Source: Pseudoxanthomonas helianthi (lineage in GTDB: Bacteria; Pseudomonadota; Gammaproteobacteria; Xanthomonadales; Xanthomonadaceae). Taken from it: DNA of 64,000 bases. How positions within the stretch are numbered: position 1 is the first letter of the stretch; the number at the start of each line of letters is the position of its first letter. Location of the stretch: NCBI RefSeq assembly GCF_017939625.1, contig NZ_JAGKTC010000003.1:124001-188000 (forward strand), in the 5' to 3' direction. A program made the translations under genes and the position numbers. A model generated the notes under the pieces. That model worked only from the letters and a program-made list of their open reading frames with translations, had not been told where the DNA came from and ran no database searches. Below, one piece after another: positions 30,701-64,000 of this stretch.

Positions 30701-30859
30701 CATTTCGACGTGTTCAACCTGCTCAACGAGCAGACGGCACTGAACCGGAACTGGAACTACAGCCCGGACAACCCGCAGAGCGGCTGGCCGATGTACGAAA
30801 TGCCGACCAACACCCAGGCGCCGCGCTCGGCGCGCTTCAGCATCACCTACGACTACTGA
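27734..30859 (+). CDS. TonB-dependent receptor with N-terminal carboxypeptidase-like domain (Oar-like)
   Basis: A 1041-residue outer-membrane receptor. After a signal peptide (IGSLLAAGTVHG) comes a small beta-sandwich of the carboxypeptidase regulatory type (about 30-110, TATGATREIAVGSNGRYTAAQ cut short here), then a TonB-box-like stretch before the plug (VTVRGSRAAIDV), the plug with YVNGFNTTDPNQGQ, and a 22-strand barrel ending in FSITYDY with aromatic terminus. It lies 219 bp after GH31 on the same strand. Uptake of GalNAc-containing glycans is inferred from this place. It is a paralogue of the receptor at 58574. Confidence 0.9.
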   Translation: MKSGHSLRQKCLIVAIGSLLAAGTVHGQSTVGSIYGQVPAGEGQTIVIHNTATGATREIAVGSNGRYTAAQLPVGTYTVTLQRDGKVVQTQENVVLRVGQGENVSFAGGGDNVQQLDQVTVRGSRAAIDVTSVDSRTVLTSEQLKALPLARSAEAAALLAPGVVPGTTAASGRFGAPLSSFGGASVVENVYYVNGFNTTDPNQGQGGLTLPYGAIDQEEIYTGGYSAKYGRSEGGVLNILGKSGTNEWKFGGTAVFFPSWSRADQTDLYYSHLPMNAFGTPTAQAAQTGMLYSPRSENESSTQTYDAYIGGPILRDRLFFFVAAEQSNTDGHSVGSVTSDTYTESSSENRKLYAKINWNITDNHLLELTGDYNNIDSTSTQYHYDFLNRKRGDVKPNSQSDGTNGGRFWAAKYTGYLTDTLTLSAQYGKMDLKSETIPVGLDTTNAFVGSPEFQNPAYNGGTPIRSQQTRSSIAAPGEFNTKNWRIDLNWVLGAHTLNFGVDRLDSTAVDINSSLPTGPGYSWSYGHTDSPTIPLNPNIGVPATADYPNGASGYYVTKNVRRTGGDLYTYQQAEYLEDNWQVTDRLLLTLGIRHDSYRNENTHHDTYVEQNNLWQPRFGFSWDAHGDSSLKVFGNLGRYDMNQPLSSDGWLANSALNTQQYYTYSGIDSNGVPTGLTQMTEPVSINGSYGQSPDFHLIYAKDLKPQAQDELILGFVKALDSHNTFGAKFTHRELRSVIDDFCNGTNADGGPDFDGKAMGHFDKAEAMGIEVDYEGDPWCRQINPGIDNVIVVKDTSGVYHDVPMTAAEMGFPKLKRKYNGLNFFVEHAFDGKWYGKFDYTWSRAYGNSEGQSQTRSDSIGGTQQTDWDNPAVMVNANGPYGYDHTHQIKLFGYYQLNREWQVSGNLTMVSGGPKYCLGKYGPDQTKPYGYGGFYWCDGQWTLNSEGSLVPVPGTGQPTPPGKKGRLGWNNSINLGVHYRPAFADHKLGFHFDVFNLLNEQTALNRNWNYSPDNPQSGWPMYEMPTNTQAPRSARFSITYDY

Positions 30860-49547: not shown

Positions 49548-51379
49548 ATCCGGACCGTACCGAACTGGGCGGGGTGTTGGGCGAAGCGCTGGCGGCGAAC
49601 CTGCGCGGTCGCCTGCTGCATTTCATCGTCGACGAGCACAGTCCGGCCATTGCGCTGTTCTCGCCGGAGCACCGTGCGGCCAACCTCGAAGGCGACTGGT
49701 ACGGCGAGCACGCCGGCAAATGGTTGTACGCCGCGGCGAAGGCGGTGATGCGCAGCGATGATGCCGCGCTGGTCGCGCACCTGCGCCGCGTCGCCGATTA
49801 CCTGGTGGCGGTGCAGGAACCCGATGGCTATCTCGGCACCTACGCGCCCTCTCGCCGCTTCATGGTTCCGCAACCGCCGAAACCGGTCAGCTGGGACGGA
49901 GCGCCTGCGCTGCGCACCTGGGACATGTGGACGCACAGCTACCTGGTCGTCGGCCTGGTCGAGACCTGGCGTGCGCTGGGCGAAGCGCGGCATCTCGAAG
50001 CCGCCGTGCGCATCGGCGACCTGTGCCTGCGCACGTTGCGCGCCGGCATCGACATCAATAGCCTCGGCAACCACCACGGCATGTCGGCGACGGTGTTGCT
50101 GGACGCCGCGGTGGAACTGCATTTCGCCAGCGGCGAACAGCGTTTCCTCGAATTGGCGCTGCTGGTGCTGGAGCAGATCGAGGCCAATCCGGCCTTGCGC
50201 CTGCTCGGCCGGGCGCTGGAAGGCGCCGACGCTTCGGAAATCGCCACCGGCAAGGCCTATCAGTTGCTCTGGAACCTGGTCGGCCTGGCCAAGCTGCATC
50301 GCGCCACCGGCAATCCGGAATACCTGACTGCGGTGGAGAAGTTGTGGCACAACATTCGCAACCACCACCTGACCCTGGGTGGCGGCCCATGGGGCGGGGT
50401 GGCCCACCGTTCGCGCGAAGTGTTCAATCCGGCGAACGTGTTCAGCCCGCAGGGCTACGTGGAAACCTGTTCGATCCTGGCCTGGTTGCAACTCAACCGC
50501 GAGCTGCTGCGCATCACTGGCGCCGCGCGCTACGCCGAGGAAATCGAACGCACCGCCTACAACGACCTGCTCGGCGCGGCCGCGCCCGACGGCGAGGATT
50601 GGTGCTACTACTCCTTCCCCAACGGCAAGCGCGTGCACACCACCTACTGGCGTTGCTGCAAATCCAGCGGCGCGATGGCGCTGGAGGAATTGCCCGACCT
50701 GGCTTACAGCGGTACGACCGGCGGCTTGCGCATCAACCTGCTGGGTCCGGGTTCGGCGAAGTTGCTGATGCCGGTGGCCGGCGAAGTGGTGCTGACCCAG
50801 GCCACGAACTATCCGTTCGACGGCGCCGTGGACATCCGTGTCGAACCGGAACGCGCTACCCGTTTCGCCATCGAGATCCGCATCCCGTCGTGGGCACGCG
50901 ATGCCAGTGCCGAAGTCGATGGCCAGCCTGTCGGTGCGGTCGTCGCCGGCGAATGGCTGCGCATCGTGCGTGTATGGCGCCCTGGCGACCGCATCCGCCT
51001 GCGCCTGCCGATGGCACCGACGCTGCACTTCCGCAGCAACCGCAACGTGCAGGAATCGCGCGCGCCCGATGGCAGCGAGGTGAAGCAGCAGGTGCTGCGC
51101 TTCGACTACGTCGCCTTGAGTCGTGGTCCGCTGGCCTATGCGACGGGCTTGATCGACGGATTCAAGTTCGAGGAGACGATCCGGCTTCCGGAGCTGCCGC
51201 CCCCGCAATGGCTGCGCGAAGAGGGCGATCCGGCGACGGGCGAGGGCGTTCGCATCGAGATGGCGCTGGACTATCGCGCGCCGCTGGCATTCGTGCCGTA
51301 TTACCGTGCCGGGGGCCGCGAGGACGGCGCATGGCGCCTGACCTGGCTGTCGCTGGCGCCCGGCGAAAGGGCCTGTTAG
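49544..51379 (+). CDS. GH127-family beta-L-arabinofuranosidase-like enzyme
   Basis: A 611-residue glycosidase of family GH127 (former DUF1680). The zinc/cysteine active site of the type enzyme is conserved as E307-T-C309 (YVETCSILAW) and C371-C372 (YWRCCKSSGA), with the nucleophilic cysteine predicted at 371. The helical (alpha/alpha)6 barrel is followed by beta-sandwich domains. There is no signal peptide, so it acts in the cytoplasm on imported oligosaccharides or glycosides. The start overlaps the cytochrome gene by 4 bp. Other sugars such as aceric acid are possible substrates in this family. Confidence 0.9.
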   Translation: MNPDRTELGGVLGEALAANLRGRLLHFIVDEHSPAIALFSPEHRAANLEGDWYGEHAGKWLYAAAKAVMRSDDAALVAHLRRVADYLVAVQEPDGYLGTYAPSRRFMVPQPPKPVSWDGAPALRTWDMWTHSYLVVGLVETWRALGEARHLEAAVRIGDLCLRTLRAGIDINSLGNHHGMSATVLLDAAVELHFASGEQRFLELALLVLEQIEANPALRLLGRALEGADASEIATGKAYQLLWNLVGLAKLHRATGNPEYLTAVEKLWHNIRNHHLTLGGGPWGGVAHRSREVFNPANVFSPQGYVETCSILAWLQLNRELLRITGAARYAEEIERTAYNDLLGAAAPDGEDWCYYSFPNGKRVHTTYWRCCKSSGAMALEELPDLAYSGTTGGLRINLLGPGSAKLLMPVAGEVVLTQATNYPFDGAVDIRVEPERATRFAIEIRIPSWARDASAEVDGQPVGAVVAGEWLRIVRVWRPGDRIRLRLPMAPTLHFRSNRNVQESRAPDGSEVKQQVLRFDYVALSRGPLAYATGLIDGFKFEETIRLPELPPPQWLREEGDPATGEGVRIEMALDYRAPLAFVPYYRAGGREDGAWRLTWLSLAPGERAC

Positions 51380-51492
51380 GGCGATCGCAAGAATTTCTGG
51401 AGGCAGAACATATGCCGCACGCCTGTTTCGGGCCGCACCCGTCGCCCACACTCGTCGCATAGAACGGACAGGATTCGAAGGATCAGCCGTCC

Positions 51493-52689
51493 ATGAAGCA
51501 CTCATCGCCATTCGACCTGGCCCGGCGCGAGGGCCCGCAGGGCCCGCTGAGCGGGATCAAGGTGCTGGACCTCAGCGCCTACATCGCCGGCCCCTACGGC
51601 TGCACGCTGCTGGCCGACCAGGGCGCCAGCGTGATCAAGGTGGAGCCGCCCGACGGCGACAACCTGCGCCAGTATCCTTCGACCTTGCAGGCGGAAAGCC
51701 GCGCCTTCATGGGCGTGAACCGCAGCAAGCTGGGCATCCGCCTGGACCTGAAGAGCGCCGAAGGCCTGAACGCGCTGCTGCGCCTGGTGCGCGAAGCCGA
51801 CGTGCTGGTGCATAACTTCCGCCCGGCGGTGCCGCGCCGCCTCGGCATCGATTTCGACCGCCTGACCGCGATCAATCCGCGGCTGGTCTACTGCGCCGTG
51901 ACCGGCTATGGCGAAACCGGGCCGATGAAGGACAAGGCCGGTTACGACCAGGTGCTGCAGACCATGACCGGCATCTGCGCGCTGCAAGGCAAGCGCGGTG
52001 GTCCGCCGGAAATCGTCTACGGCTCGGTTGTCGACTACTACGCCGCGGCGTTGCTGGCCGCCGGCGTGTCCTCCGCGCTGTACGAACGCGAGCGCAGCGG
52101 CGTGGGCCAGTACGTCGGTATCTCCCTGCTGCGCAGCGCGCTGACCATGCAGTCGGCCCGGCTGATCTGGGCCGAGGGCGAATCGCTCGACATCGGCCGC
52201 GACATGCGTTCGGGTGGAGTCACCGGCATCCATCCGGCCCGCGACGGCTACCTGTACATCTCGGCCAACACGCCGCGCTTCTGGCAGGCGCTGTGCGACA
52301 AGACCGGCCTGCAGGCGCTGGCGGCGAATCCGCGCTACGACAGCGTGCGCAAGCGCGCCGAACACGCGGCGGAAATCATTCCGCTGCTGCACGACGCGCT
52401 GGCCGCGCACGATGCACTGGAATGGGAAGCGATCTTCGGCGACGAAGTGCCGTGCGCGGCGGCGCGCAAGGTCGAGGACATGTTCACCCATCCGCAGGTG
52501 CTGTCCGAAGGCATCATCACCCGCATCGACCACCCGGTGCTGGGCAGTTACCACGGCGTCGCCCAGCCGATCAAATTCGGACGCACGCCGGGACCGGAGC
52601 CCTTCGCTTCGCCGGTATTCGATCAGGACACGGCGGACGTGCTCGAAGCCGTCGCGGACCCATCCGAAGCGCAGGTCCGCAAAGCGTAG
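51493..52689 (+). CDS. Family III CoA-transferase (CaiB/BaiF)
   Basis: A 398-residue CoA-transferase of the CaiB/BaiF fold, an interlocked dimer. Motifs are GIKVLDLSAYIAGPYGCTLLA, VIKVEPPDGDN, NRSKLGIRLDLKS and the probable catalytic D181 in YGSVVDYYA. Members move CoA between carboxylic acids, for example succinyl-CoA to citramalate, itaconate or malate. Together with the CitE-like lyase at the other end of the locus it could activate and then cleave a hydroxy-dicarboxylic acid. It lies 113 bp after GH127, behind an AAGGA ribosome site, and a REP pair follows. Confidence 0.9.
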   Translation: MKHSSPFDLARREGPQGPLSGIKVLDLSAYIAGPYGCTLLADQGASVIKVEPPDGDNLRQYPSTLQAESRAFMGVNRSKLGIRLDLKSAEGLNALLRLVREADVLVHNFRPAVPRRLGIDFDRLTAINPRLVYCAVTGYGETGPMKDKAGYDQVLQTMTGICALQGKRGGPPEIVYGSVVDYYAAALLAAGVSSALYERERSGVGQYVGISLLRSALTMQSARLIWAEGESLDIGRDMRSGGVTGIHPARDGYLYISANTPRFWQALCDKTGLQALAANPRYDSVRKRAEHAAEIIPLLHDALAAHDALEWEAIFGDEVPCAAARKVEDMFTHPQVLSEGIITRIDHPVLGSYHGVAQPIKFGRTPGPEPFASPVFDQDTADVLEAVADPSEAQVRKA

Positions 52690-52696
52690 GAAACCA

Positions 52697-52756
52697 GTAG
52701 GAGCGCACTTCAGTGCGCGACCGGGAGTTCCGTCGCGCACTGAAGTGCGCTCCTAC
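52697..52756. repeat. Paired REP element, GTAGGAGCG type
   Basis: Perfect 25-nt inverted arms (52697-52721 and 52732-52756) starting GTAGGAGCGCACTTCAGTGC, with a 10-nt spacer. It lies between two convergent genes and may act as a transcription barrier. Confidence 0.93.
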
Positions 52757-52766
52757 AGAAGCGTCG

Positions 52767-54023
52767 TCAATCCACGGGATCGGCTTCAGCGGCCGCTTCG
52801 TCGCGCGTCTGTCGCGCCACCACCGCGGTCGCGGTCATGTCGCCAGTGACATTGCCGACCGTCGCCAGCACATCGGGGATCGCATCCACCGCCATCAGCA
52901 CCGCCAACGGCGCGATCGGCAAGCCCATCGCCTGGCTGACCGGAACGTTGGTGGCCAGGAAGATCGCCTGGCCGGGCAGGCCGACCGAGCCCATGCTGAC
53001 CAATACAGCGAGAACCACGCCGGTCGCCAATTGCGCCGGGCCCAGTTCGACGCCCATCGCCCAGGCGACGAAGCAGGCGGTGGCCAGGTACTGGATCGGC
53101 GAAGTGATGCGAAACAGCGATACCGCCATCGGCAGCACCAGTCCCGACACCCGCTGGGAAAAACCGAGTCGCTGCTGCGCGCTGTCGAGCATCGCCGGCA
53201 ACGTCGCCAGCGAGGACTGCGTGCTGGCAGCCACCGCCTGCACCGGCACCAGCCCGGAGATGAAACGCCCCGGCGACTGGCGACCGAAAGCGATGCCAAC
53301 GCCGATCAGCAGCACCACGGCCAGCGCGTAGAGCGCGCACTCCAGCGCGATGTAGATGCCCAGCGCCTGCAGCATGCCCAGCCCCGCGCGTGCGGTGAGC
53401 GCCAGCACCAGGGCGAAAATGCCTACCGGCGCCGCCCACAACACCCAGCGCACGACCACGATCATCGCGTCGGCGATCGCCTTGAAGAAACCGACCACCT
53501 GCGCGCGCGCCGGCGGCTCCAGCCGGGTCAGGGCGAAACCGAAGAACAGGGCGAAGGTCACCAGCGGCAGCATTGCGCCGGCGGCTGCGGCGGCCACCGC
53601 GTTGCTCGGCACGATCGCGATCAGTGCGGAAGCCCAGCCGCCGCCATTCGTCGCCTGCACCTCTGCCTCGTGTCCGCGCAGGGCAGCGGCGACCGCGGGA
53701 TCCGGCTGCAGCATCGACAACACCAGTGGCGCCAGCACCGCGGTCATCGCCGCGGCCGCGAACAGCAGCACGACGAAGGTGACGATCGCGCGCCGGGCGA
53801 CCCGGCCCGAATGCGCGGCGTCGCTGGTCTGGTTGATGCCGACGATCACCAGCGCCAGCACCAGCGGCACCACGGTCATCTGCAGCGCGTTGAGCCAGAG
53901 CTTGCCGAACGGCTCCACGATGTCGGCGACCTGCCGGGCCAGCGCCGGATCCATCCACGCCAGCAGGATGCCAAGGACGATGCCGGCGATCAGGCCGGTC
54001 AGTACGCGTGCGGTCTGGCTCAA
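52767..54023 (-). CDS. Dicarboxylate/amino-acid:cation symporter (DAACS, GltP-like)
   Basis: A 418-residue transporter of the glutamate/aspartate/dicarboxylate family with about eight helices and two hairpins. Family signatures are LNALQMTVVPLVLALVIVGI, ASTQSSLATLPAML (the serine-rich first hairpin, here STQSS), and VGLPGQAIFLATNV. The start is TTG, overlapping the L,D-transpeptidase stop by 4 bp (TTGA), which implies coupling. In the murein-peptide context it would take up L- or D-glutamate, aspartate or similar products. It ends the leftward operon and is convergent with the CoA-transferase. Confidence 0.88.
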   Translation of the reverse strand: MSQTARVLTGLIAGIVLGILLAWMDPALARQVADIVEPFGKLWLNALQMTVVPLVLALVIVGINQTSDAAHSGRVARRAIVTFVVLLFAAAAMTAVLAPLVLSMLQPDPAVAAALRGHEAEVQATNGGGWASALIAIVPSNAVAAAAAGAMLPLVTFALFFGFALTRLEPPARAQVVGFFKAIADAMIVVVRWVLWAAPVGIFALVLALTARAGLGMLQALGIYIALECALYALAVVLLIGVGIAFGRQSPGRFISGLVPVQAVAASTQSSLATLPAMLDSAQQRLGFSQRVSGLVLPMAVSLFRITSPIQYLATACFVAWAMGVELGPAQLATGVVLAVLVSMGSVGLPGQAIFLATNVPVSQAMGLPIAPLAVLMAVDAIPDVLATVGNVTGDMTATAVVARQTRDEAAAEADPVD

Positions 54024-54793
54024 AGGGCGATCTCCGGCAATTTCCAGGCGTGGACGAGGCGTGCGTATTCGGCCTTCGGCAGTTGCACGAACACCGGATG
54101 GCGCCGCGCATCCAGCCAGGCCAACAGGTCTTCCATGCTGGCCGGCGCCATTGCGGTGCAGCCCGAGGTGGTTTCGCCGGGCGCCTTCCACAAATGCGCG
54201 AAGATGCAGCTGCCGCCCTGGCGGACCGCGCCATCGGCATTGTGTTCGATCACGAAGCCCTCGCGATAGCGCTGGTCGCCGTCGGCATGCAGGTCGCGGC
54301 GCATCGGTTCGCTGGACTTGTCCAGCCCCGGCGCCTTGACCACGCTGCGGTCGACGATGCGGTTGTAGTACGCCGATTCGGGCACGTCGATGCACCAGTC
54401 GTTCGTGCCCATCGCCTTGTAGTCGAGCCCGGTGCGGGCGCTGGCGGCATAGCCGAACGCAGGGCCGATGGCGAACACGCCGGCCGGGGACTTGCCATCG
54501 CCTTCGCGCTTGACCGGCCCATCGTTGCGCGGCGCGTTCAACCCGATGCCCCAGGCCGTACCGGTGCGGCCCAGCGTGATCGGCATCGCGTCGCCGACCT
54601 GGGTCCAGCCGTTGTCGCCGCGCTCGAACCTGCGCAGTTCGCCGTTGGTGGCGTTCCAGTCGGCGCTGGTCACCAGCACGAGTTGCTGTGCATTCGACCA
54701 ACGCATGGCTTCATCGGCGTAGCCCTTTGGCTTGTGTGCGCAGGCGGCCAACGTGAGCAATAGCAGGAAGGTCGCGATTTGGCGAATCGACAT
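54020..54793 (-). CDS. L,D-transpeptidase-like lipoprotein
   Basis: A 257-residue envelope lipoprotein (lipobox LAAC, cysteine 18) with a YkuD-type catalytic domain. The motif H200-LWKAPGETTSG-C212-TAM is intact, matching the HxxxxxxxxxxSGC(I/T)xM active site. L,D-transpeptidases cross-link or release peptides and lipoproteins at meso-diaminopimelate. There is no LysM or peptidoglycan-binding module. The ATG at 54793 gives the lipoprotein signal; an earlier start would add 14 unrelated residues. It is coupled to the symporter. Confidence 0.87.
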   Translation of the reverse strand: MSIRQIATFLLLLTLAACAHKPKGYADEAMRWSNAQQLVLVTSADWNATNGELRRFERGDNGWTQVGDAMPITLGRTGTAWGIGLNAPRNDGPVKREGDGKSPAGVFAIGPAFGYAASARTGLDYKAMGTNDWCIDVPESAYYNRIVDRSVVKAPGLDKSSEPMRRDLHADGDQRYREGFVIEHNADGAVRQGGSCIFAHLWKAPGETTSGCTAMAPASMEDLLAWLDARRHPVFVQLPKAEYARLVHAWKLPEIAL

Positions 54794-54859
54794 CAATGGG
54801 TTCCCGGAAGGCTGAGTATTCTGGATTCCAAGCATGCACGAGTTGCGACGCGGTTGCTC

Positions 54860-54928
54860 GTCATCCCGGCGAAAGCCGGGACCCAGCCTTTGCGCCAGGA
54901 GCTGGGTCCCGGCTTTCGCCGGGATGAC
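54860..54928. repeat. Paired REP element, GTCATCCCGGC type
   Basis: Perfect 27-nt inverted arms (54860-54886 and 54902-54928), sharing GTCATCCCGGCGAAAGCCGG with the copy at 15276, around a 15-nt spacer. It separates the regulator gene from the transpeptidase gene. Confidence 0.93.
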
Positions 54929-54953
54929 GAACTGAAACCAATGCGAGCCGCGA

Positions 54954-55799
54954 TCACGACTCTAGCAACGGCTGGATGCGTTCCTGGTTTTCCTGCAGCC
55001 GCGAGCGGCGTCCGCCATCGGCTTCGTACAGGCGGATGAGCACGCGGTCGAGCAGGTGCTGCAAGGCGGAGTGATAGAGCAGCGGTTCGATGTGCGGGTG
55101 TTCGTCGTGCGCGGACACCAGCAAGGCCAGGTCGGCCAGCGCGCGCAAGGCGTTGGAACTGTGGCGGGTGACCGTGACCACTTTGCCGCGCTGCGAACGC
55201 ATGTGCCGCGCCAGCTGGCACAGCGCGGGCTGCATGCCGTGTTCGGAAAACACCAGCAACACATCGTCGGCCCGGGCCGCGGACAGGCTGGCGGTCATGT
55301 GCGCGGCATCGAAGTTGTGCACGGTGAGGATGCCGAGCTGGGCCAGCCGCAAGGCCAGCGCACGCGCATGCAGGTCGTCTTCGCCCAGGCCGATGATGAA
55401 CACCGTGCCTGCGCGGCCGATCATTTCGGCAGTCTGGGTCAGGATACCCGGCGGGTTGATCAGGCGGGTGGCTTCTTCGGCCTCGGATTTACGCACCCAT
55501 AGCTTGTAGCCTTGGGTACTCGAGAGGGGTTTCCTCGCCGGCTTGGCTACCGTTCCATCGCCATTGTCCGCGCGGATCACCGCTTCGCTGATCGCCAGCT
55601 TGAGGTCGGGATAGCCCTTGAAACCCAGCTTCTGGCAGAACTTGACCACGCTGGACTGGCTGATGTCCAGCGCATCGGCCAGCTGCTGCGACGAGTAGTC
55701 GCGCAGCAGATGCGCGTTCTCGAGGATGAAATCGGCGATGCGCCGCTCGATCGCCGACATCCGGTCGCGTTCGGAGCGGATCTTGACCAGCGCGGTCAT
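54954..55799 (-). CDS. MurR/RpiR-family transcriptional regulator
   Basis: A 281-residue regulator. The N-terminal RpiR helix-turn-helix (about 1-80: MSAIERRIADFILENAHLL, QQLADALDISQSSVVKFCQ, KLGFKGYPDLKLAI) is followed by a SIS sugar-phosphate-binding domain (about 120-260: VFIIGLGEDDLHARALALR, LVFSEHG). MurR of E. coli senses N-acetylmuramic acid 6-phosphate. It lies 10 bp after the epimerase, in an operon with a murein endopeptidase, so a cell-wall-derived effector is plausible. Confidence 0.9.
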   Translation of the reverse strand: MTALVKIRSERDRMSAIERRIADFILENAHLLRDYSSQQLADALDISQSSVVKFCQKLGFKGYPDLKLAISEAVIRADNGDGTVAKPARKPLSSTQGYKLWVRKSEAEEATRLINPPGILTQTAEMIGRAGTVFIIGLGEDDLHARALALRLAQLGILTVHNFDAAHMTASLSAARADDVLLVFSEHGMQPALCQLARHMRSQRGKVVTVTRHSSNALRALADLALLVSAHDEHPHIEPLLYHSALQHLLDRVLIRLYEADGGRRSRLQENQERIQPLLES

Positions 55800-55809
55800 C
55801 GTCGGCGCC

Positions 55810-56916
55810 TCAGGCGGCGAGCTCGGCCGCGGGGGCGAGGCCGTCGATGCTGCGGATGCCCAGGCCCGGGGCGTCGGTCACGCTGATCTCCGATTCGTTG
55901 AAGATCACGCCGCTGGCCACCGGGTCGAACTGGCACAGCGAAGGCCCGTCCAGGTCGACCTTGCTGATCACGTCGGACCGGGCCACCGCCAGGTGCACTG
56001 CCGCGGCGACGCCGATGCTGGATTCCAGCATGCAGCCGATCATGCAGTCGATGCCGTACAGGCTGCAGATGTCGGCGATACGCACCGCGTTGGAAATGCC
56101 GCCGGTCTTCATCAGCTTGATGTTGACGATGTCGGCCGCGCGCATGCGGATCAGCTCGACGACTTCGCGCGGACCGAACACGCTTTCGTCGGCCATCACC
56201 GGCGTGTGCACGCGTTCGGTGACGTAACGCAGGCCGGCCAGGTCGTGCGCCTTGACCGGCTGTTCGACCAGCTCCAGCCGCACCCCGGCGTCTTCCAGCG
56301 TGCGCAGCGCGTACACCGCCTGCTTGGCGGTCCAGCCCTGGTTGGCGTCCAGCCGCAGCAGCGCGCGGCCCTCGACCGCGGCGTGGATCGCTTTGGTGCG
56401 CTCGATGTCCAGCCCGATGTCCTTGCCGACCTTGATCTTCAGCGATTCGAAGCCGCGCTCCACTGCCGCCAGCGAGTCGGCCACCATCTTGTCGATGTAA
56501 TCGACGCTGATGGTGATGTCGGTGGTGATGGCAGGGTCGCCGCCGCCCAGTAGCTTGTACAACGGCGCGCCGTACAGCTGCCCCCACAGGTCGTATACCG
56601 CGATTTCCACCGCGGCCTTGGCGCTGGTGTTCTTCTCCATCGCCGATTGCACCAGCTGGGTGATGCGGTTGAGGTTGGCGATGTCCAGGCCGATCAGGCG
56701 CGGGGCGATGTAATGGCGCACGGCTTCGACGATCGAGCCGTGGGTATCGCCGGTGATGACTGCGGTGGCCGGCGCGCTGCCATAACCGACGTGGCCGCTG
56801 TCGGTGTGCACCGTCACCACCACGTCCTCGACCCGGTCCACGGTGCGCAGCGCGGTCTTGAACGGCGTCTTCAGAGGCACGCGCAGCATGCCGAAACGGA
56901 TGTCGGTGATCTTCAT
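55810..56916 (-). CDS. L-Ala-D/L-Glu (dipeptide) epimerase
   Basis: A 368-residue enolase-superfamily enzyme. The catalytic lysines are K162 (in K160-x-K162, SLKIKVGK) and K267 (VNIKLMKTGG), and the magnesium ligands are D190, E218 and D243 (MADES). These positions align almost exactly with the Bacillus subtilis L-Ala-D/L-Glu epimerase. The C-terminal VDLDGP motif specific for dipeptide epimerases is present. It converts L-Ala-D-Glu from murein peptides to L-Ala-L-Glu, which peptidases can split. The start overlaps the NlpC/P60 stop by 4 bp. Confidence 0.93.
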   Translation of the reverse strand: MKITDIRFGMLRVPLKTPFKTALRTVDRVEDVVVTVHTDSGHVGYGSAPATAVITGDTHGSIVEAVRHYIAPRLIGLDIANLNRITQLVQSAMEKNTSAKAAVEIAVYDLWGQLYGAPLYKLLGGGDPAITTDITISVDYIDKMVADSLAAVERGFESLKIKVGKDIGLDIERTKAIHAAVEGRALLRLDANQGWTAKQAVYALRTLEDAGVRLELVEQPVKAHDLAGLRYVTERVHTPVMADESVFGPREVVELIRMRAADIVNIKLMKTGGISNAVRIADICSLYGIDCMIGCMLESSIGVAAAVHLAVARSDVISKVDLDGPSLCQFDPVASGVIFNESEISVTDAPGLGIRSIDGLAPAAELAA

Positions 56917-58343
56917 GGAGAATCCTTGGCCACCCGCACGATATTGGTGATGCGATCCACGTAGTCGTTGTCCTTGTTGAAGCGAAGCGGCAGCAGCGGC
57001 GTGACCGAAACCGCGTTCAAGTGCATCGAACGCATTTCCCCGTCCGCACCGAGGAAGCTGCCGCCATTGGTATCGTGGATGACATAGGGCATGCCGTCGA
57101 TATTCCCGATATACATCATGACATGACCGGGAATGTAGACCAGGTCGCCCACCTGCATCGCCCGCACCGCCGCCATGCGCTTGTCGCGGCTGTCGCCGGG
57201 CTCGAAATGGGTCCGCGTGAACACCGGGCTGATCGCCTGCGCGCTGGTGTTGCGCGGCATCTGCACGCCCATGCTGCGGTAGACGTCCGAGACGAAGCCG
57301 CTGCAGTCGCGGCCGTTGTAGGAATGACCCCAGCCGTAGCGTTCGCCCAGGAACTTGAAGGCTTGGCGGAGGATGTTGGCATGGGTCAGCGGCAGGTAGT
57401 CGGCGCTGCTTTCGGCATTCTTCTGCAACAGGGCAGGCGCGAAGCCGAGGCGGCCGTCGCCGTCGCGCACCGGCAGGTCGAGGACCCACGAACTGTACGG
57501 GTGCTGCCCGTTGACCGGCTTGTCCGCCGCGACGTTCGCCAGCGGCACGCGCGTGCCCATGTCCAACTGCAGTTCCGAGACGCGCGGTGCTTCGCGGGTG
57601 AACACCGTGCGCGGCTTGGCGCCGGTGACGATCCGGTACGGCATGCGTTGCGAATACGCGAGCACGGTCGCCTTGTCGCCTTCGGCGATAGCCTTGGCTT
57701 CCACCCAAGCGGCGTAGCGCGGGCTGACCACGAACAACCACTGCCCGTCGGCACTGGCGTGCGCGATGACGACCGGGTCGCCCGGGAACAGCGCGCTTTC
57801 CTGGAAGCGGTCGATGTCGGTGTCGTCGTCGCGGCTGAAGACGCGCAGCAGGGTGGGGAAGGTGCGCAGTGCTGCGCGTTCGACCGCCATGCCGTAGCGC
57901 GTCGGCTGGTTCGCCGGAATGGCATCGATGGCGCGGTTGGCGACGATGGCATCAAGGGTTGCCTTCGGCACTGGCTTGCCGGCTTCGTCCCACAGCGGCT
58001 TCGCGGGCGGCGAGGCCAATCCGTCGATCCAGCCGGCGACCTGCGCGCGCGGCAGCATCGCGGGCAGGGCCGACAGGTCGTGCATCGAAGCGTCGTCGCG
58101 CAGCAGTCGTGCGTTGCGGGCGTCGATGGCGGCACGCGGCATCAGTACCTTGTCGGGCGCCGATAACTTCGACACCCAGAACTCAGGCGCAAGGTAGGCA
58201 TCGGTAACCCCGATGACGCCGCTTTCCGGCACCGGCAACTGCGTTGCCGGGCGGTCGCGTGCCACGGTGGGCGCGACGGCCATGGCAAGCGCCAAAGTGA
58301 CCGCGGCAGTGAGCCCAAGCCGCAGGTGGCGCGTGACGATCAT
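56913..58343 (-). CDS. SH3-NlpC/P60 murein peptide endopeptidase
   Basis: A 476-residue exported peptidase. A signal peptide (LTAAVTLALAMAVAPTVA) precedes an N-terminal helical region, two SH3-like domains and a C-terminal NlpC/P60 domain. Catalytic C347 lies in GRDCSGFVSDVYRSMG, H407 in IPGHVMMYIG, and the third polar residue in VIHDTNGG. This build is that of gamma-D-glutamyl-diaminopimelate endopeptidases that release L-Ala-D-Glu. The ATG at 58343 follows AGGAGAAGGG. It is the first gene of the leftward operon with the epimerase and regulator. Confidence 0.92.
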   Translation of the reverse strand: MIVTRHLRLGLTAAVTLALAMAVAPTVARDRPATQLPVPESGVIGVTDAYLAPEFWVSKLSAPDKVLMPRAAIDARNARLLRDDASMHDLSALPAMLPRAQVAGWIDGLASPPAKPLWDEAGKPVPKATLDAIVANRAIDAIPANQPTRYGMAVERAALRTFPTLLRVFSRDDDTDIDRFQESALFPGDPVVIAHASADGQWLFVVSPRYAAWVEAKAIAEGDKATVLAYSQRMPYRIVTGAKPRTVFTREAPRVSELQLDMGTRVPLANVAADKPVNGQHPYSSWVLDLPVRDGDGRLGFAPALLQKNAESSADYLPLTHANILRQAFKFLGERYGWGHSYNGRDCSGFVSDVYRSMGVQMPRNTSAQAISPVFTRTHFEPGDSRDKRMAAVRAMQVGDLVYIPGHVMMYIGNIDGMPYVIHDTNGGSFLGADGEMRSMHLNAVSVTPLLPLRFNKDNDYVDRITNIVRVAKDSP

Positions 58344-58432
58344 CCCTTCTCCTTTCTGGAATCTGGCAACGCCGGACGGCAAGGCCGTGGGCGGTGCGAT
58401 TGGTGCGTTGCGGAATAGGTAATTCGCATTTG

Positions 58433-58482
58433 TTATACGGCAAGAATAAATTATTGACCAGCCCTTGCCGCCGTGTTACACA
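58433..58482. promoter_or_regulatory. Candidate overlapping divergent promoters
   Basis: Rightward: TTGACC (58454-58459), 17 nt, TACACA (58477-58482). Leftward: TGGTCA (58460-58455), 17 nt, TATAAC (58437-58432). The two -35 boxes are the two strands of the same 7 bp, so the endopeptidase operon and the receptor gene would compete for polymerase and could share one regulator. The 230-bp gap holds no gene. Confidence 0.45.
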
Positions 58483-58573
58483 GCCGGGAAGCCAACGCTG
58501 CCGCTGGCTGCCGTGTCTCGCGCAGCAGACGCACCTACGAACGAATCAAGTCGGTCATTACCGGGGAGTGGTT

Positions 58574-61555
58574 ATGAGCAATGCACGCCGTTTGCGCAAG
58601 TCCGTACTCAACGTCGCCCTGGGCCTGTGCCTGACTTCGCTGGCTGCGCCGGGATTCGCCCAGGCCGTCACCGGCGCAGTAGCCGGCCGCGCCAACGCCG
58701 GCGACACGATTACCGTCACCAATACCGCGACCGGCCAGAACCGCGTGGTCACGGTCGGCAAGGACGGCACCTACCGCGTCGCGCAACTGCCGCCGGGCGA
58801 TTACACCCTGACCGCAGGCAGCGGCAAGCCGATCGCAGTCAGCGTCTCCCTGGGCGGTACCACTACGGTGAACCTGAGCGCCGGAGGCGACGTGGCCAAC
58901 CTGGATGCGATCCAGGTGGTCGGCTCGCGCGTGGTCAACCGGGTGGACGTGCGCAGCACCGAGACCGCGACCAACGTGACCCGCGAAGAATGGGCGCGCC
59001 TGCCGGTGGACCAGAGCCTGGGCGCGGTAGCGTTGATGGCGCCCGGCGTGGTGGGATCGGGCGCGACCTTCGGCGGCCTGACCTTCGGTGGTTCGTCGGT
59101 GGCGGAGAACGCCGTGTACATCAACGGCTTGAACGTGACCGATCCGTACCGCCGCCAGGGCTTCTCGTCGGTGCCGTTCGCCTTCTACAAGGAAGTCCAG
59201 GTCAAGACCGGCGGATATTCCGCCGAATTCGGCCGCAGCACCGGTGGCGTCATCAACGCGGTGACGCGTTCGGGCGGCAACGAATTCCATGGCGGCGTCG
59301 AAGTGACGCTGGAGCCGGCGGATTGGGCGGCCGACAAGAAGGACCATTTCCACCACGACGGCACCATCGACGAACGCGACCGCACCAGTCGCGACAAGAG
59401 CCCCCTGTACAAGACCAACATATGGGCGTCCGGTCCGATCGTGAAGGATCGTTTGTTCTTCTTCGCGATGTATGAGAAGCGCGACAACGATTCCAAGGAC
59501 ATCGACACGAACGAGGCCTGGAAGACCACCAGCGACAACGATTTCTGGGGCGCCAAGTTCGACTGGAACATCACCGACAACCACAAGCTGGAGCTGCTCG
59601 CGTTCTCCGACAAGGCGGATACGGTCACCAGCAATTACGACTACAACTGGGATACGGCCCAGTTCGGCGACAAGCTCGGCGAAAGCAATGCCGGCTCGGG
59701 CGGCGACAACTGGTCGGCGACCTATACGGGCCATTTCGGCGATAACTTCACCGCCAAGGCCATGTACGGGGTCAACAAGCGCAGCGCCACGAGCGGAAGC
59801 CCGTGGGACGCCGATTGCAGCATCGTGACCCGCTCCGGTAGCTATACGGCCGCATTCGGCCCGGCAACGATGCAGGAAGGCTGCCATCCGACCAATAGCA
59901 GCATCAGCAGCCGCTACGACAAGCGGGAAGCGGCGCGTCTGGACTTCGAATGGGCGCTTGGAGACCATTTGCTGCGCTTTGGCCTGGATCAGGAAGTAAT
60001 GGATTCCAACAGCTCGGTGGTGTACCCGGGCGATGGCATGAGTTACCAGGCGCAGGCGGCCACGCCAGGCGGCTCGCTTCCGAACGGCGCGGTCGTTCCC
60101 GCAGGCGTCACCGCAATCGTCGATGCCCGCCATTACGTCACCGGTGCGCCGGTTTCGACCAAGGCCCAGGCGTTCTACGTGGAGGACAACTGGAACGTCA
60201 CGCCGAACCTGTTGCTGAGCCTCGGCGTGCGCGCGGACAAGTTCGAGAACACGCTGGCGTCGGGAGCGACCTTCGCCAAGGCCGATTTCAGCGACATGAT
60301 CTCGCCGCGAGTCGGCTTCAGCTGGGACATGAAGGGCGATGGCACCACCAAGCTGTTCGGCAACGCCGGCCGTTACTACATCCCGCTGACCAACAAACTG
60401 ACTGACTATTTCGGTGGCGGTACCACCGACGAGCACACTTACTACGTGCTCAATGGGTGGACCCAGCAGACCGATCCGGTTACCGGAGCACCCTATCTCG
60501 CACCGAACCTTGGTGCGCAGATCGGGCCGGTCAACACCGAGGGTAATGCCCCCGCGCCCGACGATGTCCGCACCGCGGTGTCCCGCGACCTGAAGCAGGT
60601 GTTCCAGGACGAATATATCCTGGGCTTCCAGCAGGCGATCAGCCAGGCATGGTCTTACGGCATCAACGCTACCTACCGCAAGGTGACCCGTGCGGTGGAA
60701 GATGTGCGCACCAACCACGTGGAGGGTTGCGATTGGTATTCCGGTGACTGGCCGATTCTCAATCCAGGCGAAACCAACACCCTGTGGTGCCCGGATACCA
60801 ACAGCTGGGTCACCTTCGACAATTCCAAGGACGGCTATATTGCGTCCGGCAGCGGCGCCATCATGGGTTACAAGAAGCCCCGCCGTACCTACAAGGCGGT
60901 CGAGTTCCAGATCGATCGCGCATGGGATGACAAGTGGGCGTTCAACGCCAGCTACCTGTGGTCCAAGAGCGAGGGCAACATCGAAGGCCCGGTGAACTCG
61001 GATACGGGTTACGCCGACACCAACCTGGTGCAGTACTACGACCACCCGGCCGTCAACGAGCGCTACGGCGTCCTGTTCAACGACTTCCGCCACCAGATCA
61101 AGCTGCGCGGCAGCTACAAGCTCAACGAAATGTGGAGCTTCGGCGCCACATTGTCGGCGCGTTCCGGCGGGCCGATCACCGCCTTTGGCGTGCGCTGGCC
61201 CAACGACAATCGCAGCGCGGGCGGCCCCGGCGAGTTCAGCGGCGGCGGTTCGGGCTGGCTGTGCGTGGCAAATTGTTCAAGCTTGAACAGGGAACTGGTC
61301 TATACGCCGCGCGGCGCATTCGGTCGCATGCCGTGGGTCACCAGTCTAGGCCTCAGCGCAACCTGGACCTTGCCGGTGGAAGGCGTGGACCTGAAGGCAC
61401 GCTTCGCCGTCTACAACCTGCTCAACCGCCAGGTGAAGGTCAACGTGCATTCCCGCTACGAAAGCACGCCCGGCAACCAGATGCCTTACTTCGGCGAAGG
61501 CACCGTCTGGCAGTCGCCGCGCTACATGAACCTGGTGGTCAGCTGGAACTTCTGA
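58574..61555 (+). CDS. TonB-dependent receptor with carboxypeptidase-like domain (Oar-like)
   Basis: A 993-residue outer-membrane receptor. It has a signal peptide (LGLCLTSLAAPGFAQA), a carboxypeptidase-regulatory-like domain (about 30-105, NTATGQNRVVTVGKDGTYR), a pre-plug VVGSRVVNRVDV, plug motifs YINGLNVTDPYRRQGFSS and KTGGYSAEFGRSTGGVI, and a barrel ending MNLVVSWNF. It is a paralogue of the receptor at 27734. The ATG follows CGGGGAG. It is divergent from the murein-peptidase operon and followed by a murein amidase, so peptidoglycan peptides or fragments are the likely ligand, although no such receptor is established. Confidence 0.9.
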   Translation: MSNARRLRKSVLNVALGLCLTSLAAPGFAQAVTGAVAGRANAGDTITVTNTATGQNRVVTVGKDGTYRVAQLPPGDYTLTAGSGKPIAVSVSLGGTTTVNLSAGGDVANLDAIQVVGSRVVNRVDVRSTETATNVTREEWARLPVDQSLGAVALMAPGVVGSGATFGGLTFGGSSVAENAVYINGLNVTDPYRRQGFSSVPFAFYKEVQVKTGGYSAEFGRSTGGVINAVTRSGGNEFHGGVEVTLEPADWAADKKDHFHHDGTIDERDRTSRDKSPLYKTNIWASGPIVKDRLFFFAMYEKRDNDSKDIDTNEAWKTTSDNDFWGAKFDWNITDNHKLELLAFSDKADTVTSNYDYNWDTAQFGDKLGESNAGSGGDNWSATYTGHFGDNFTAKAMYGVNKRSATSGSPWDADCSIVTRSGSYTAAFGPATMQEGCHPTNSSISSRYDKREAARLDFEWALGDHLLRFGLDQEVMDSNSSVVYPGDGMSYQAQAATPGGSLPNGAVVPAGVTAIVDARHYVTGAPVSTKAQAFYVEDNWNVTPNLLLSLGVRADKFENTLASGATFAKADFSDMISPRVGFSWDMKGDGTTKLFGNAGRYYIPLTNKLTDYFGGGTTDEHTYYVLNGWTQQTDPVTGAPYLAPNLGAQIGPVNTEGNAPAPDDVRTAVSRDLKQVFQDEYILGFQQAISQAWSYGINATYRKVTRAVEDVRTNHVEGCDWYSGDWPILNPGETNTLWCPDTNSWVTFDNSKDGYIASGSGAIMGYKKPRRTYKAVEFQIDRAWDDKWAFNASYLWSKSEGNIEGPVNSDTGYADTNLVQYYDHPAVNERYGVLFNDFRHQIKLRGSYKLNEMWSFGATLSARSGGPITAFGVRWPNDNRSAGGPGEFSGGGSGWLCVANCSSLNRELVYTPRGAFGRMPWVTSLGLSATWTLPVEGVDLKARFAVYNLLNRQVKVNVHSRYESTPGNQMPYFGEGTVWQSPRYMNLVVSWNF

Positions 61556-61573
61556 GTTCCATGGCAGGCCGGG

Positions 61574-61596
61574 GCCGCCGTCGGGTGGACGGCGGC
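61574..61596 (+). other. Perfect 9-bp hairpin after the TonB receptor
   Basis: GCCGCCGTC (61574-61582) pairs with GACGGCGGC (61588-61596) around GGGTG, 18 bp after the receptor stop. There is no T-run. It is the third hairpin of this kind just after a TonB receptor in the window. Confidence 0.55.
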
Positions 61597-61637
61597 TTCG
61601 GCATGCCGCAGATGGATCCGTAAAGTAGGACGAACAC

Positions 61638-62399
61638 TTGCGTATTGCATTGCGTTGGTTGTCCATAGCGTTGCTGGCTGCGCTGCTGTCTTCCTGTGCC
61701 ACCGGGCATAACCCGCTGGCCAAGTGGGAGCGTTCGCGCAACTTCAATGAACGCCAGCCAGTCCTGATTGTCCTGCACTACACCACCGAGGAGTCGTCGG
61801 AAAAAAGCCTGCACACGCTGAAGACCGCCAATAGCAAGGGGCCGGTCGGCGTGCATTACCTGGTGGGGCGCGACGGCAGGTTGTTCCAGCTGGTCAAGGA
61901 CGGCAAGCGCGCCTGGCATGCGGGCGGCGGGCGCTGGGGCACCATCACCGACGTCAATTCGGCGTCCATCGGCATCGAGCTGGACAACAGCGGACACGAC
62001 CCGTTTCCGGACGTGCAGATCGACAAGCTGATCGTGCTGTTGAACGACTTGACCCAACGCCTGGCCATTCCGCGACGCCAAGTCATCGGCCACGAGGACA
62101 TGGCGCCTGGCCGCAAGATCGACCCGGGTCCGCTGTTCCCGTGGAAGCGCCTGTACGAAGCCGGCTTCGGCATGTGGCCCGACCCGGATGCCGGCGAGCC
62201 GCCGCCCGGTTTCGACGGTTGGCTTGCGATGGCAGCGATAGGCTACCCATTGGATGATCGCGAGGGCGCGCTGCGCGCTTTTCGCCATCGCTTCCGAGGC
62301 ATCGAGAGCCAGGACGCCGAACTGGAAGCCGAGGATCTGCGTATCCTGTATTCGCTGACGCGGCCACTGGTCACGCAGCCGCCTGCGAAATCGCAATAG
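61638..62399 (+). CDS. AmiD-like N-acetylmuramoyl-L-alanine amidase lipoprotein
   Basis: A 253-residue lipoprotein (lipobox LSSC, cysteine 20) with an amidase_2 domain. Zinc ligands H47, H152 and D162 and the catalytic E114 and K160 match E. coli AmiD in order and spacing (VLHYT, GIELDN, GHEDMAPGRKIDPGP). It cleaves the bond between MurNAc and the peptide stem, including 1,6-anhydro forms. No LolA-avoidance aspartate follows the lipid cysteine (C-A-T), so an outer-membrane position is expected. The start is TTG after a GTAGGA site. It lies 82 bp after the receptor. Confidence 0.9.
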   Translation: MRIALRWLSIALLAALLSSCATGHNPLAKWERSRNFNERQPVLIVLHYTTEESSEKSLHTLKTANSKGPVGVHYLVGRDGRLFQLVKDGKRAWHAGGGRWGTITDVNSASIGIELDNSGHDPFPDVQIDKLIVLLNDLTQRLAIPRRQVIGHEDMAPGRKIDPGPLFPWKRLYEAGFGMWPDPDAGEPPPGFDGWLAMAAIGYPLDDREGALRAFRHRFRGIESQDAELEAEDLRILYSLTRPLVTQPPAKSQ

Positions 62400-62439
62400 G
62401 CGTTCCGGCAACGGAGCGACCGAACGTACGGAGGGGAAC

Positions 62440-64000
62440 ATGAAGTGTTTGGTCGCCGCCTTGTTGCTGACCTTTTCCATCGGTGTTCCCCGCGTGGCGC
62501 AGGCCGCGGACGAGGCGCCCGATGCGCAGGCGATCGATGCCGCGGTGCGCGCCACCATCGATCGTTACAAGCTGCCGGGGATCGCGGTCGGCGTGATGGA
62601 GGACGGCAAGGTGACGTTCGCGCGCGGCTACGGCGAGACCGTGTTCGGCAGCGGCGATCCGGTCACCACGAAGACGCTGTTCAAGATCGCCTCCAACAGC
62701 AAGGCGATGACGGCGGCCGTGCTGGCGCGGCTGGTGCAACAGGGCAAGCTGCGTTGGGACGACCCGGTGGTGAAACACCTGCCCGGATTCGCCATGCACG
62801 ATCCATGGGTCACCCGGCACATGACGGTCAGCGATCTGCTGGTGCACAACAGCGGCCTACCCGAGGGCGGCGGCGACCTGATGTTGTGGCCCGAGCCGAA
62901 CCTGTTCACCCGCGACGATATCGTCAATGGACTGCGCTACATCAAGCCGGCTTATGGCTTTCGCGCCGGGTATGCCTACGACAACCTGCTGTACGTGGTG
63001 GCAGGACAGGTGGCCGCAGCGGCCGGCGGGGCCTCCTACGAAGAACTGCTGCGGCGCGAAGTGTTCAAGCCGTTGGCGCTGGAGGGCTGCCGGGTAGGGG
63101 AGTTCCGCCTGACCGATGCAGGCAGCGTGGCGCAGCCGCATTCCCGCGACGGCGACAAGATCGTCCGTACCCGCGGCGATGCGGAGCTGGTGCCGGAAAT
63201 CGCCTCCGCGCCGGCGGGCGGCATCCGCTGTTCGCTCGACGACATGCTCGCCTGGGCACGCAACTGGCTGGTGCCGACCGATGCCCAGAAACAATGGCTG
63301 GGCGATGCGCAGCGCGCGGAAATGTGGAAGGCGCGCACGCCGATGCCGGTTTCGCAGCGGCAGAAGCGCTGGGACCGCACGCATTACTACGCTTACGCCT
63401 ATGGCTTCCGCCTGGCCGACGTCGATGGCGAATGGACGGTCTCGCACACCGGCACGCTGGGCGGCATGTATTCGATGATGATGCTGTTGCCGGATCGCCG
63501 CTCCGGTTTCGTGTTCATGATCAACGGCGATGGCAGCAGCGCCCGCACTGTGTTGGGCGAAGCACTACTCAAGCTGTTTACCGCGCCCGAAGCCTCGCTG
63601 GGCGTGCAGGGTTACGCCGACGATCTGGCAAAGCCGCCCCAGCCGATCGCTGCCGCGCCGGCAAAGGCCAAGCTGCCCGACATCGCCAGGCGCAAGCTCG
63701 TCGCCGCCGAAGCGCTGCGCGACTGGCTGGGCACGTGGCGCGATCCGTGGTTCGGCGAGGTGCGCATCTGTGCGACGGGCAAGGAAGTGGAGTGGCGCTC
63801 GCTGAAGTCGCCGAAGATGCACGGCCAGATAGGGCGGCTGGATGGGCGCTTCCTGCTGGTCTGGGACGACGAAGCGGTCGACGAAAACGCCTGGCTGGAT
63901 TTTGCCCGGCAGGGCGATGTGCGCACGTTGCGCATGGCCAAATTCGACCCGCAAGGCGACTTCAGTTCGGACTACGAAGACCTCGCGCTGACTCGCGTCG
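62440..64000 (+). CDS. Serine hydrolase, beta-lactamase/penicillin-binding fold (3' end outside window)
   Basis: At least 520 codons; no stop occurs before the window ends. A signal peptide (LVAALLLTFSIGVPRVAQA) precedes a PF00144-type domain with S85-x-x-K88 (ASNSKAM), Y180-D-N182 (YAYDNLLY) and H336-T-G338 (SHTGTLGGMYS), all intact. After about residue 385 comes a C-terminal extension with a lipocalin-like DUF3471-type start (LRDWLGTWRDPWFGEV). Such enzymes can be DD-peptidases, D-aminopeptidases or esterases. The ATG follows GGAGGGGAAC, and it probably shares a transcript with the amidase 40 bp upstream. Confidence 0.9.
   Translation, partial: MKCLVAALLLTFSIGVPRVAQAADEAPDAQAIDAAVRATIDRYKLPGIAVGVMEDGKVTFARGYGETVFGSGDPVTTKTLFKIASNSKAMTAAVLARLVQQGKLRWDDPVVKHLPGFAMHDPWVTRHMTVSDLLVHNSGLPEGGGDLMLWPEPNLFTRDDIVNGLRYIKPAYGFRAGYAYDNLLYVVAGQVAAAAGGASYEELLRREVFKPLALEGCRVGEFRLTDAGSVAQPHSRDGDKIVRTRGDAELVPEIASAPAGGIRCSLDDMLAWARNWLVPTDAQKQWLGDAQRAEMWKARTPMPVSQRQKRWDRTHYYAYAYGFRLADVDGEWTVSHTGTLGGMYSMMMLLPDRRSGFVFMINGDGSSARTVLGEALLKLFTAPEASLGVQGYADDLAKPPQPIAAAPAKAKLPDIARRKLVAAEALRDWLGTWRDPWFGEVRICATGKEVEWRSLKSPKMHGQIGRLDGRFLLVWDDEAVDENAWLDFARQGDVRTLRMAKFDPQGDFSSDYEDLALTRV

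Follow-up and report, generated by a model that had tools for sequence, protein, structure and literature searches.

How the peptides of murein re-enter a Gram-negative cell from outside is, to our knowledge, mostly unknown, and porins are usually assumed to let them in. The question is raised anew by a locus of Pseudoxanthomonas helianthi at the end of the window, the 64,000-nucleotide stretch analysed here (bases 124001-188000 of contig C3, NZ_JAGKTC010000003.1, in a genome of 3.59 Mb). The original prediction, made from the letters of the window, described eight genes that would together scavenge peptidoglycan fragments through a TonB receptor. A search of open reading frames (ORFs) and Pfam families found all eight in the predicted places, order and strand, and the locus continues for about 4 kb beyond the window with a second TonB receptor and a second AmiD-like lipoprotein. 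We conclude that it is probably a TonB-linked regulon which scavenges the peptide portion of murein that has been released beyond the inner membrane. What stands of the prediction is the single locus, its probable regulon, the chemistry of murein peptides and the tie of the receptor to the murein enzymes; the analysis does not support glutamate uptake by the symporter, a MurR-like sensor or strict YkfC-type cutting in the form predicted.

Receptor 1 and the epimerase

Receptor 1 lies between the two halves of the locus (58574-61555, plus strand; 993 amino acids). Pfam, an AlphaFold2 model (pLDDT 84, pTM 0.83) and Foldseek describe a CarboxypepD_reg-like part, a plug and a barrel. The Plug (36.9 bits) and OMP_b-brl_4 (110 bits) matches exceed their cut-offs and place it among the TonB-dependent transporters, with PF00593 at 24.9 bits, below its cut-off of 27. 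The best Foldseek match was FusA, and the fold search gave no specificity beyond "TonB-dependent transporter". Another TonB receptor of like kind, 34% identical to receptor 1, is encoded at 27734-30859 of the window.

We surveyed 119 genomes of the family for receptor 1 and for the L-Ala-D/L-Glu epimerase of the locus. The epimerase was counted as present at E ≤1e-30, and each such genome also matched at ≤1e-100; with the receptors, up to seven first-look candidates were scored per genome. The epimerase occurs in 72 genomes and an orthologue of receptor 1 in 57. All 57 are among the 72, so that none of the 47 genomes without the epimerase has the receptor. Orthologues are separated from paralogues by a clear step in score (56 matches of at least 748 bits, the next paralogue 615), and a contig-edge fragment in G114 was added to them. 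Receptor and epimerase lie within 12 kb of each other in 54 of the 57; the exceptions are G003, with the receptor on another contig, and G007 and G114, with short contigs. This is the co-conservation that the prediction had proposed as a check across the Xanthomonadaceae, and the pattern that would speak against it, a receptor mostly found apart from the murein enzymes, is absent. Eight genera are mixed for the epimerase. In none of these genera does a member lacking the epimerase carry the receptor, and each has one or more members in which both occur; G086 (genus g10) carries the epimerase without receptor 1. Three further genera vary in the receptor only.

Outside the family, a close epimerase was found in four (G328, G433, G461, G241) of the 398 genomes of the phylum that were searched, the other seven matches being the family's own. 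Genes for an NlpC/P60 and a YkuD protein lie near the epimerase in each of the four, and the NlpC-epimerase pair recurs next to other receptors outside the order.

A palindrome between the two halves

Between the NlpC/P60 gene and receptor 1, which are divergent, lies a palindrome, TCAATAAWTTATTC (58444-58457, no strand), a putative operator that has no second site in the genome even when one mismatch is allowed. An Rfam search of 49000-64000 matched no family. The exact palindrome has 56 sites in 54 of the 119 genomes, and all 54 have the epimerase; a reversed-pattern control gave no site in any of the 119. All but one of the sites (55/56) lie within 8 kb of the epimerase. The remaining one stands just upstream of the relocated receptor of G003, on the other contig, and in G117 a second copy stands upstream of receptor 2. 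Of 154 loci (named and unnamed copies from one genome unmerged), 104 have the exact core ahead of NlpC. Another 14 copies lie elsewhere in 2.92 Mb, at least 10 of them in distant loci, and loci of the Rhodanobacteraceae type have a variant that differs by one base.

The candidate for binding this site is the regulator of the locus (54954-55799, minus strand; 281 amino acids). Its HTH_6 (83 bits) and SIS (51 bits) domains, both above cut-off, assign it to the RpiR family. The prediction had called it MurR-type, a sensor of phosphosugars, but it scores 85.7 bits against a cut-off of 408 for the MurR equivalog. The serines that we take to be expected in the SIS domain of MurR (GxGxS, SxSG) are replaced, with Asp at position 141 in 115 of 123 sequences and Glu at 186 in 118 of 123. 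Phosphosugar sensing was set aside for this reason. Since Asp and Glu stand in for the serines in the main group, the sequences suggest an effector other than a phosphosugar. Serine is found at position 141 in six distant loci (L178, L188, L189, L196, L200, L204).

We then compared the occurrence of the RpiR gene and the palindrome (up to two mismatches, within 2.6 kb upstream of NlpC) after setting aside 18 duplicates, 6 loci at contig ends and 4 without NlpC. Both are present in 111 of the 130 distinct loci and neither in 9; RpiR occurs alone in 7 and the palindrome alone in 3. The seven RpiR-alone loci are all distant and each has the core elsewhere. In L178, L189, L200 and L204 it immediately precedes the start of rpiR, in L188 and L196, where that start is not resolved, it has the equivalent place, and in L119 it stands upstream of a receptor-like gene. 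A further locus, L120, has it 17 bases before rpiR; in L119, L121 and L182 cores precede CarboxypepD_reg proteins of about 1000 amino acids. One of the palindrome-alone loci, L049, belongs to a genome which holds a second copy of the locus with RpiR. In this genome (G057) the two epimerase-locus copies, L049 and L065, are about 22 kb apart: one has NlpC and receptor 1 without RpiR, the other RpiR, the symporter, receptor 2, S12 and AmiD without NlpC.

Because of this distribution, we infer that the linked RpiR protein binds the palindrome. Both halves of the locus likely form one regulon, since the palindrome mostly goes with a linked RpiR gene. What can be read from the DNA is where the palindrome occurs; binding, the direction of the regulation and its inducer are our interpretation. 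The palindrome as the putative shared switch of the locus is new in this analysis.

Could the neighbourhood instead be a product of history, with separate functions kept close by vertical descent and a palindrome that serves one unit only? Linkage and vertical descent would suffice for the correlated presence of the genes. Against it stand the palindromes before the relocated receptor of G003 and before receptor 2 of G117, and the NlpC-epimerase pairs beside other receptors outside the order. We regard this explanation as very improbable.

Exchange of the receptor within the locus

The receptor of the locus varies in type. Among 55 representatives of 66 orthologues we distinguish types by their identity with receptor 1 of the window: A (73-80%), B (57-61%) and C (43-48%), with the receptor of L182 at 37%. 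When the 72 labelled loci are placed on a tree of 81 loci built from epimerase, NlpC and RpiR, at least 23 changes of type are needed, a count made without a shuffle control and leaving out nine loci labelled "none", including L182, L188 and L204 of the third group described below. No fewer than five types of receptor have been found in the slot: A, B, C, receptor 2 and a third group with CarboxypepD_reg. Three of the five bear little resemblance to one another. Receptor 2 was recognised by Pfam family search at 64344-67226 (window numbering, beyond the window), and it replaces receptor 1 in P. kalamensis and Xanthomonas sp. XNM01.

The exchange is clearest between close relatives. In Stenotrophomonas maltophilia SJTL3 and PC315 the receptors are 48% identical, whereas the other eight compared genes are 88-99% identical at the protein level, and the DNA identity falls across the receptor gene and recovers on either side. 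Five genomes of the S. maltophilia complex have one such receptor each. Since the other matches there (E ≤1e-100, in three genomes) are only 33-35% identical, the receptor was replaced and not moved. In this complex the replacement can be read from L194 (3887-6889) against L195 (3867-6890), where the remainder of the locus is closely alike.

Two Rheinheimera-type loci, L188 and L189, are 94.8% identical across 12.7 kb from the receptor start onwards, yet BLAST finds no similarity at 1e-5 between the receptors in their slots (L188 2246-5287, L189 5490-8342). One is an orthologue of receptor 2 (54%), the other a member of the third group. This exchange also covers the ORF beyond the receptor, and matches of just 85 and 311 bases remain on that side. 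L189 comes from a metagenome assembly, but the same pair recurs with receptor 2 in R. maricola and the third group in R. aquimaris. The third group comprises five loci (L119, L121, L182, L188, L204) whose proteins are 55-76% identical within the group and about 29% identical to receptor 1 over 305-432 amino acids. CarboxypepD_reg was found in all five, OMP_b-brl_4 in two and Plug in none at E ≤1e-5, so we call them receptor-like by domain and weak similarity.

The identity of the receptors tracks that of four neighbouring genes weakly (correlation 0.22-0.44), compared with 0.60-0.84 for four pairs of neighbours. Types A, B and C share a consensus residue at 74% of plug positions versus 43% of barrel positions, as expected if the path of the ligand stays while the surface changes; plugs are generally better conserved than barrels in such receptors. 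Receptor 2 is also found away from the locus. It occurs in 16 of the 119 genomes, linked to the epimerase in six, elsewhere in five epimerase genomes and in five genomes free of the epimerase, and was therefore ruled out as a marker specific for the locus.

To our mind, the exchange of receptors within a conserved locus, as read from these alignments, is a new observation. Murein peptides hardly differ among Gram-negatives, and a search of the open-access literature, with subscription papers mostly outside it, found no report of a TonB receptor for them. It is possible, in our estimate a little short of an even chance, that the locus has a receptor slot: one operator and constant enzymes would be combined with at least five exchanged receptor types serving one class of ligand, with phages or bacteriocins as the likely driver. 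Given the silence of the literature, these would be the first TonB receptors known to take murein peptides, and their recruitment would have happened several times. The natural exchanges in closely alike loci offer test cases for whether ligand or phage and bacteriocin pressure drives them.

The same diversity could mean that the receptor imports something else, such as peptides or proteins of a host or competitor which signal lysed neighbours, and that the murein enzymes are co-induced. Five or more types in one slot, three of them hardly alike, would fit this, as would FusA, the best fold match, which imports a protein. On the other side, the palindrome is linked to the receptor, the receptor is jointly absent with the epimerase, and types A, B and C have a conserved plug. 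We consider another ligand unlikely.

Enzymes, carrier and comparison with known systems

The epimerase (55810-56916, minus strand; 368 amino acids) has no signal peptide by eye. Its closest solved protein is B. subtilis YkfB (1jpm/1tkk, 343 bits), and all the catalytic residues claimed for it were found: presumably K160 and K162 as the KxK pair, D190, E218 and D243 as metal ligands, K267 as the second lysine, and R24 with D321 and D323 of the DxD motif for the substrate. They are invariant across five aligned sequences down to 50% identity. The enzyme stays below the NCBIfam equivalog cut-offs (A_G_epim_Thtga 252.6 bits against 500, PRK15129 107.6 against 343), which would model other epimerase branches. 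In genome G081 (C7:105558-106660, in L099) the epimerase match is split in two frames, by a frameshift or a sequencing error.

The adjoining gene, which overlaps that of the epimerase by four bases, encodes an enzyme of 476 amino acids that looks exported by eye (56913-58343, minus strand). SH3_6 (69 bits), NLPC_P60 (54 bits) and the residues Cys347, His407 and His423, kept in more than 97% of 140 aligned sequences, identify it as an SH3-NlpC/P60 endopeptidase. The cut between D-Glu and diaminopimelate is proposed from the family, and strict YkfC-type cutting is not supported (see below).

The plus-strand half contains an amidase of 253 amino acids (61638-62399). It is AmiD-like as claimed, with an Amidase_2 domain (114.5 bits), the lipobox LSSC and AmpDh2 as the nearest solved protein (125 bits). 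A second AmiD-like lipoprotein was found by Pfam family search at 67346-68098 (window numbering, beyond the window). Next comes a hydrolase of the beta-lactamase fold (S12; 62440-64032, plus strand, its last 32 bases beyond the window; 530 amino acids), and both the Pfam Beta-lactamase match (211 bits) and the SxxK, YxN and HTG motifs bear out the predicted penicillin-binding-protein fold. The distant locus L119 (4056-6515) encodes an 819-amino-acid fusion of an amidase, a peptidoglycan-binding domain and S12, adjoining the receptor-like gene with two palindrome cores upstream, and this fusion ties the S12 protein to murein. On the minus strand, the YkuD-family protein (54020-54793; 257 amino acids) is a lipoprotein by its lipobox LAAC, with a Pfam score of 27.7 bits over a cut-off of 23.4. 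Its motif, FAHLW...TSGCTAM, found in more than 90% of 105 aligned sequences, keeps the cysteine but not the SHGC surroundings that we take to be usual. Family and lipobox agree with the proposed L,D-transpeptidase lipoprotein; transpeptidation itself is doubtful because of this divergent motif.

If the NlpC/P60 enzyme is exported while the epimerase stays in the cytoplasm, L-Ala-D-Glu has to be carried over the inner membrane. Within the window, the locus encodes a single inner-membrane carrier, an SDF-family symporter (52767-54023, minus strand; 418 amino acids; Pfam SDF 272 bits), whose gene starts with TTG and overlaps the YkuD stop by four bases. It was predicted to be GltP-like and to take up glutamate. 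It belongs to the SDF family, but the glutamate-binding signature is absent. In an alignment with the aspartate transporter 9bgz, the NMDGT motif and the arginine of transmembrane helix 8 (presumably R397 of GltPh, with its role in glutamate symporters) are both missing: LFRITSP stands at the NMDGT stretch and DVLATVGNVTGD at DMARTTVNVTGD of 9bgz. The main binding-site differences are kept in more than 90% of 74 aligned sequences, and the protein scores 135.5 bits against the NCBIfam GltP cut-off of 638. Glutamate transport was set aside for the missing motif and arginine. In 75 fetched stretches of relatives (among them two that surround an enzyme of 31% identity, and several contig ends), the carrier slot holds an SDF protein in 34, an APC permease in 19, both in none and neither in 22; six weak APC matches, attributed to over-extended ORFs at the YkuD gene, had been discarded. 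Strict exclusivity of the two is broken by L166, which has both, among the best 80 named loci. We propose that the SDF or APC protein carries L-Ala-D-Glu.

Relatives add further enzymes, named by Pfam on one representative of each gene family. Clustering of ORFs in the 75 stretches gave transglutaminase-like proteins in 41, VanX-type dipeptidases in 24, LysA in 14 and a DUF819 membrane protein in 11. By tblastn in the named loci, which overlap in organisms with these stretches and are the best 80 of a longer list of matches, so that the counts are not a survey, the numbers are 62, 36, 28 and 23, with AmiD in 10. The LysA representative exceeds the diaminopimelate decarboxylase cut-off (485 versus 298 bits), while that of VanX is below its own (167 versus 320). 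No transglutaminase-like, LysA or VanX ORF turned up in the locus of the window, and the search for them did not extend to the remainder of the genome. Two Rhodanobacter loci, L150 (DHG33) and L153 (DHB23), combine LysA, VanX and AmiD with no recognised receptor in the slot.

In the route that we propose, murein would come from turnover, lysed neighbours or prey, and AmiD would remove the stem peptides from the glycan. The TonB receptor would draw free peptides or small muropeptides through the outer membrane; the exported NlpC/P60 enzyme would split D-Glu from diaminopimelate, and the YkuD and S12 proteins, with the VanX-type and transglutaminase-like proteins of relatives, may trim the remainder. 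L-Ala-D-Glu would enter through the symporter or, in relatives where an APC permease takes its place, through that permease, and the cytoplasmic epimerase would yield L-Ala-L-Glu for ordinary peptidases. In some relatives the LysA-type enzyme would convert diaminopimelate to lysine. The RpiR protein, bound to the palindrome between the halves, would control both.

Several observations weigh against this route. Fifteen of the 72 epimerase genomes lack an orthologue of receptor 1. Five of these show a different receptor match next to the locus (G005 with 58% identity; G006, G058, G085 and G111 with 26%), G030 and G018 have a cut or weak match only, and eight have none in the fetched stretch. Counts of presence and absence follow descent and linkage, and only the contrasts within genera allow for both, in part. 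The frequent change of receptor type could mean different ligands. Solved proteins with a fold like that of receptor 1 import ferredoxin, iron chelates, PQQ and others, and a profile search against solved structures gave no sequence match to it. In the five epimerase-free genomes with receptor 2, the murein enzymes of the locus are not beside it (one stretch being 4.4 kb). Aspartate at position 256 defines the YkfC subfamily of NlpC/P60 in the cited part of PMC2954226; our enzyme has Asn there (PRNT versus PRDS of 3h41), as has 3m1u, and the free-N-terminus rule of YkfC is therefore not transferable to it. Finally, AmpG, Mpl and an S66 carboxypeptidase (the only S66 match of the genome, C3:514418) are encoded elsewhere in the genome. 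The need for the locus is therefore unproven, and it gives the impression of a supplementary system that serves murein peptides on the outer side of the inner membrane.

The locus may also serve self-recycling, in which the cell salvages peptides of its own periplasmic turnover, the receptor recaptures leaked ones and no foreign murein is involved. Every enzyme fits the cell's own turnover, and a lipobox marks the two amidases and the YkuD protein as lipoproteins. However, AmpG, Mpl and the S66 carboxypeptidase already provide the classical route, periplasmic peptides need no TonB receptor, and relatives add LysA and VanX-type enzymes. We hold self-recycling, which partly overlaps with scavenging, to be a tentative but real possibility.

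The locus puts forward candidates for the receptors and for an inner-membrane carrier of the dipeptide, together with a putative operator of defined sequence. Among the matches listed, it spans environmental and clinical genera (Pseudoxanthomonas, Lysobacter, Rhodanobacter, Dyella, Stenotrophomonas, Rheinheimera).

Among known systems, the B. subtilis murein-peptide operon ykfABCD encodes the YkfB epimerase, the YkfC endopeptidase, an S66 LD-carboxypeptidase and an ABC peptide importer. The likeness lies in a YkfB-kind epimerase adjoining an SH3-NlpC/P60 enzyme. Here, though, Asn replaces the Asp256 marker of YkfC, and a TonB receptor, an amidase lipoprotein, RpiR and an SDF or APC permease stand in place of the LD-carboxypeptidase and the ABC importer, neither of which is among the locus genes tested by Pfam. 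We therefore regard the locus as a new variant of the ykf-type pathway and not as a ykf operon; its enzymes should work like those of the ykf pathway. In E. coli recycling, AmpG handles the uptake, and processing of the stem peptide follows in the cytoplasm. The locus shares the L-Ala-D/L-Glu epimerase step with this route (YcjG/MpaA with AmpG, AmpD and Mpl), but its endopeptidase looks exported and it contains no AmpG. Carbohydrate utilisation loci with TonB receptors are reportedly found in Xanthomonas (Blanvillain 2007) and have the same combination of receptor, degradative enzymes, inner-membrane carrier and regulator; here a murein amidase, an endopeptidase and an epimerase are found, and no carbohydrate enzymes. 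A dipeptide epimerase and TonB transporters occur among 115 Xanthomonas genes in the cited part of PMC6090828, where they are not linked to each other. The GlcNAc uptake clusters of Caulobacter, as far as the cited part of PMC13046382 describes them, likewise combine a TonB receptor, an inner-membrane carrier, enzymes and a local regulator for a murein-derived nutrient. That nutrient is a sugar, with a PTS permease and a GntR-type regulator, whereas the locus described here would take up the peptide.

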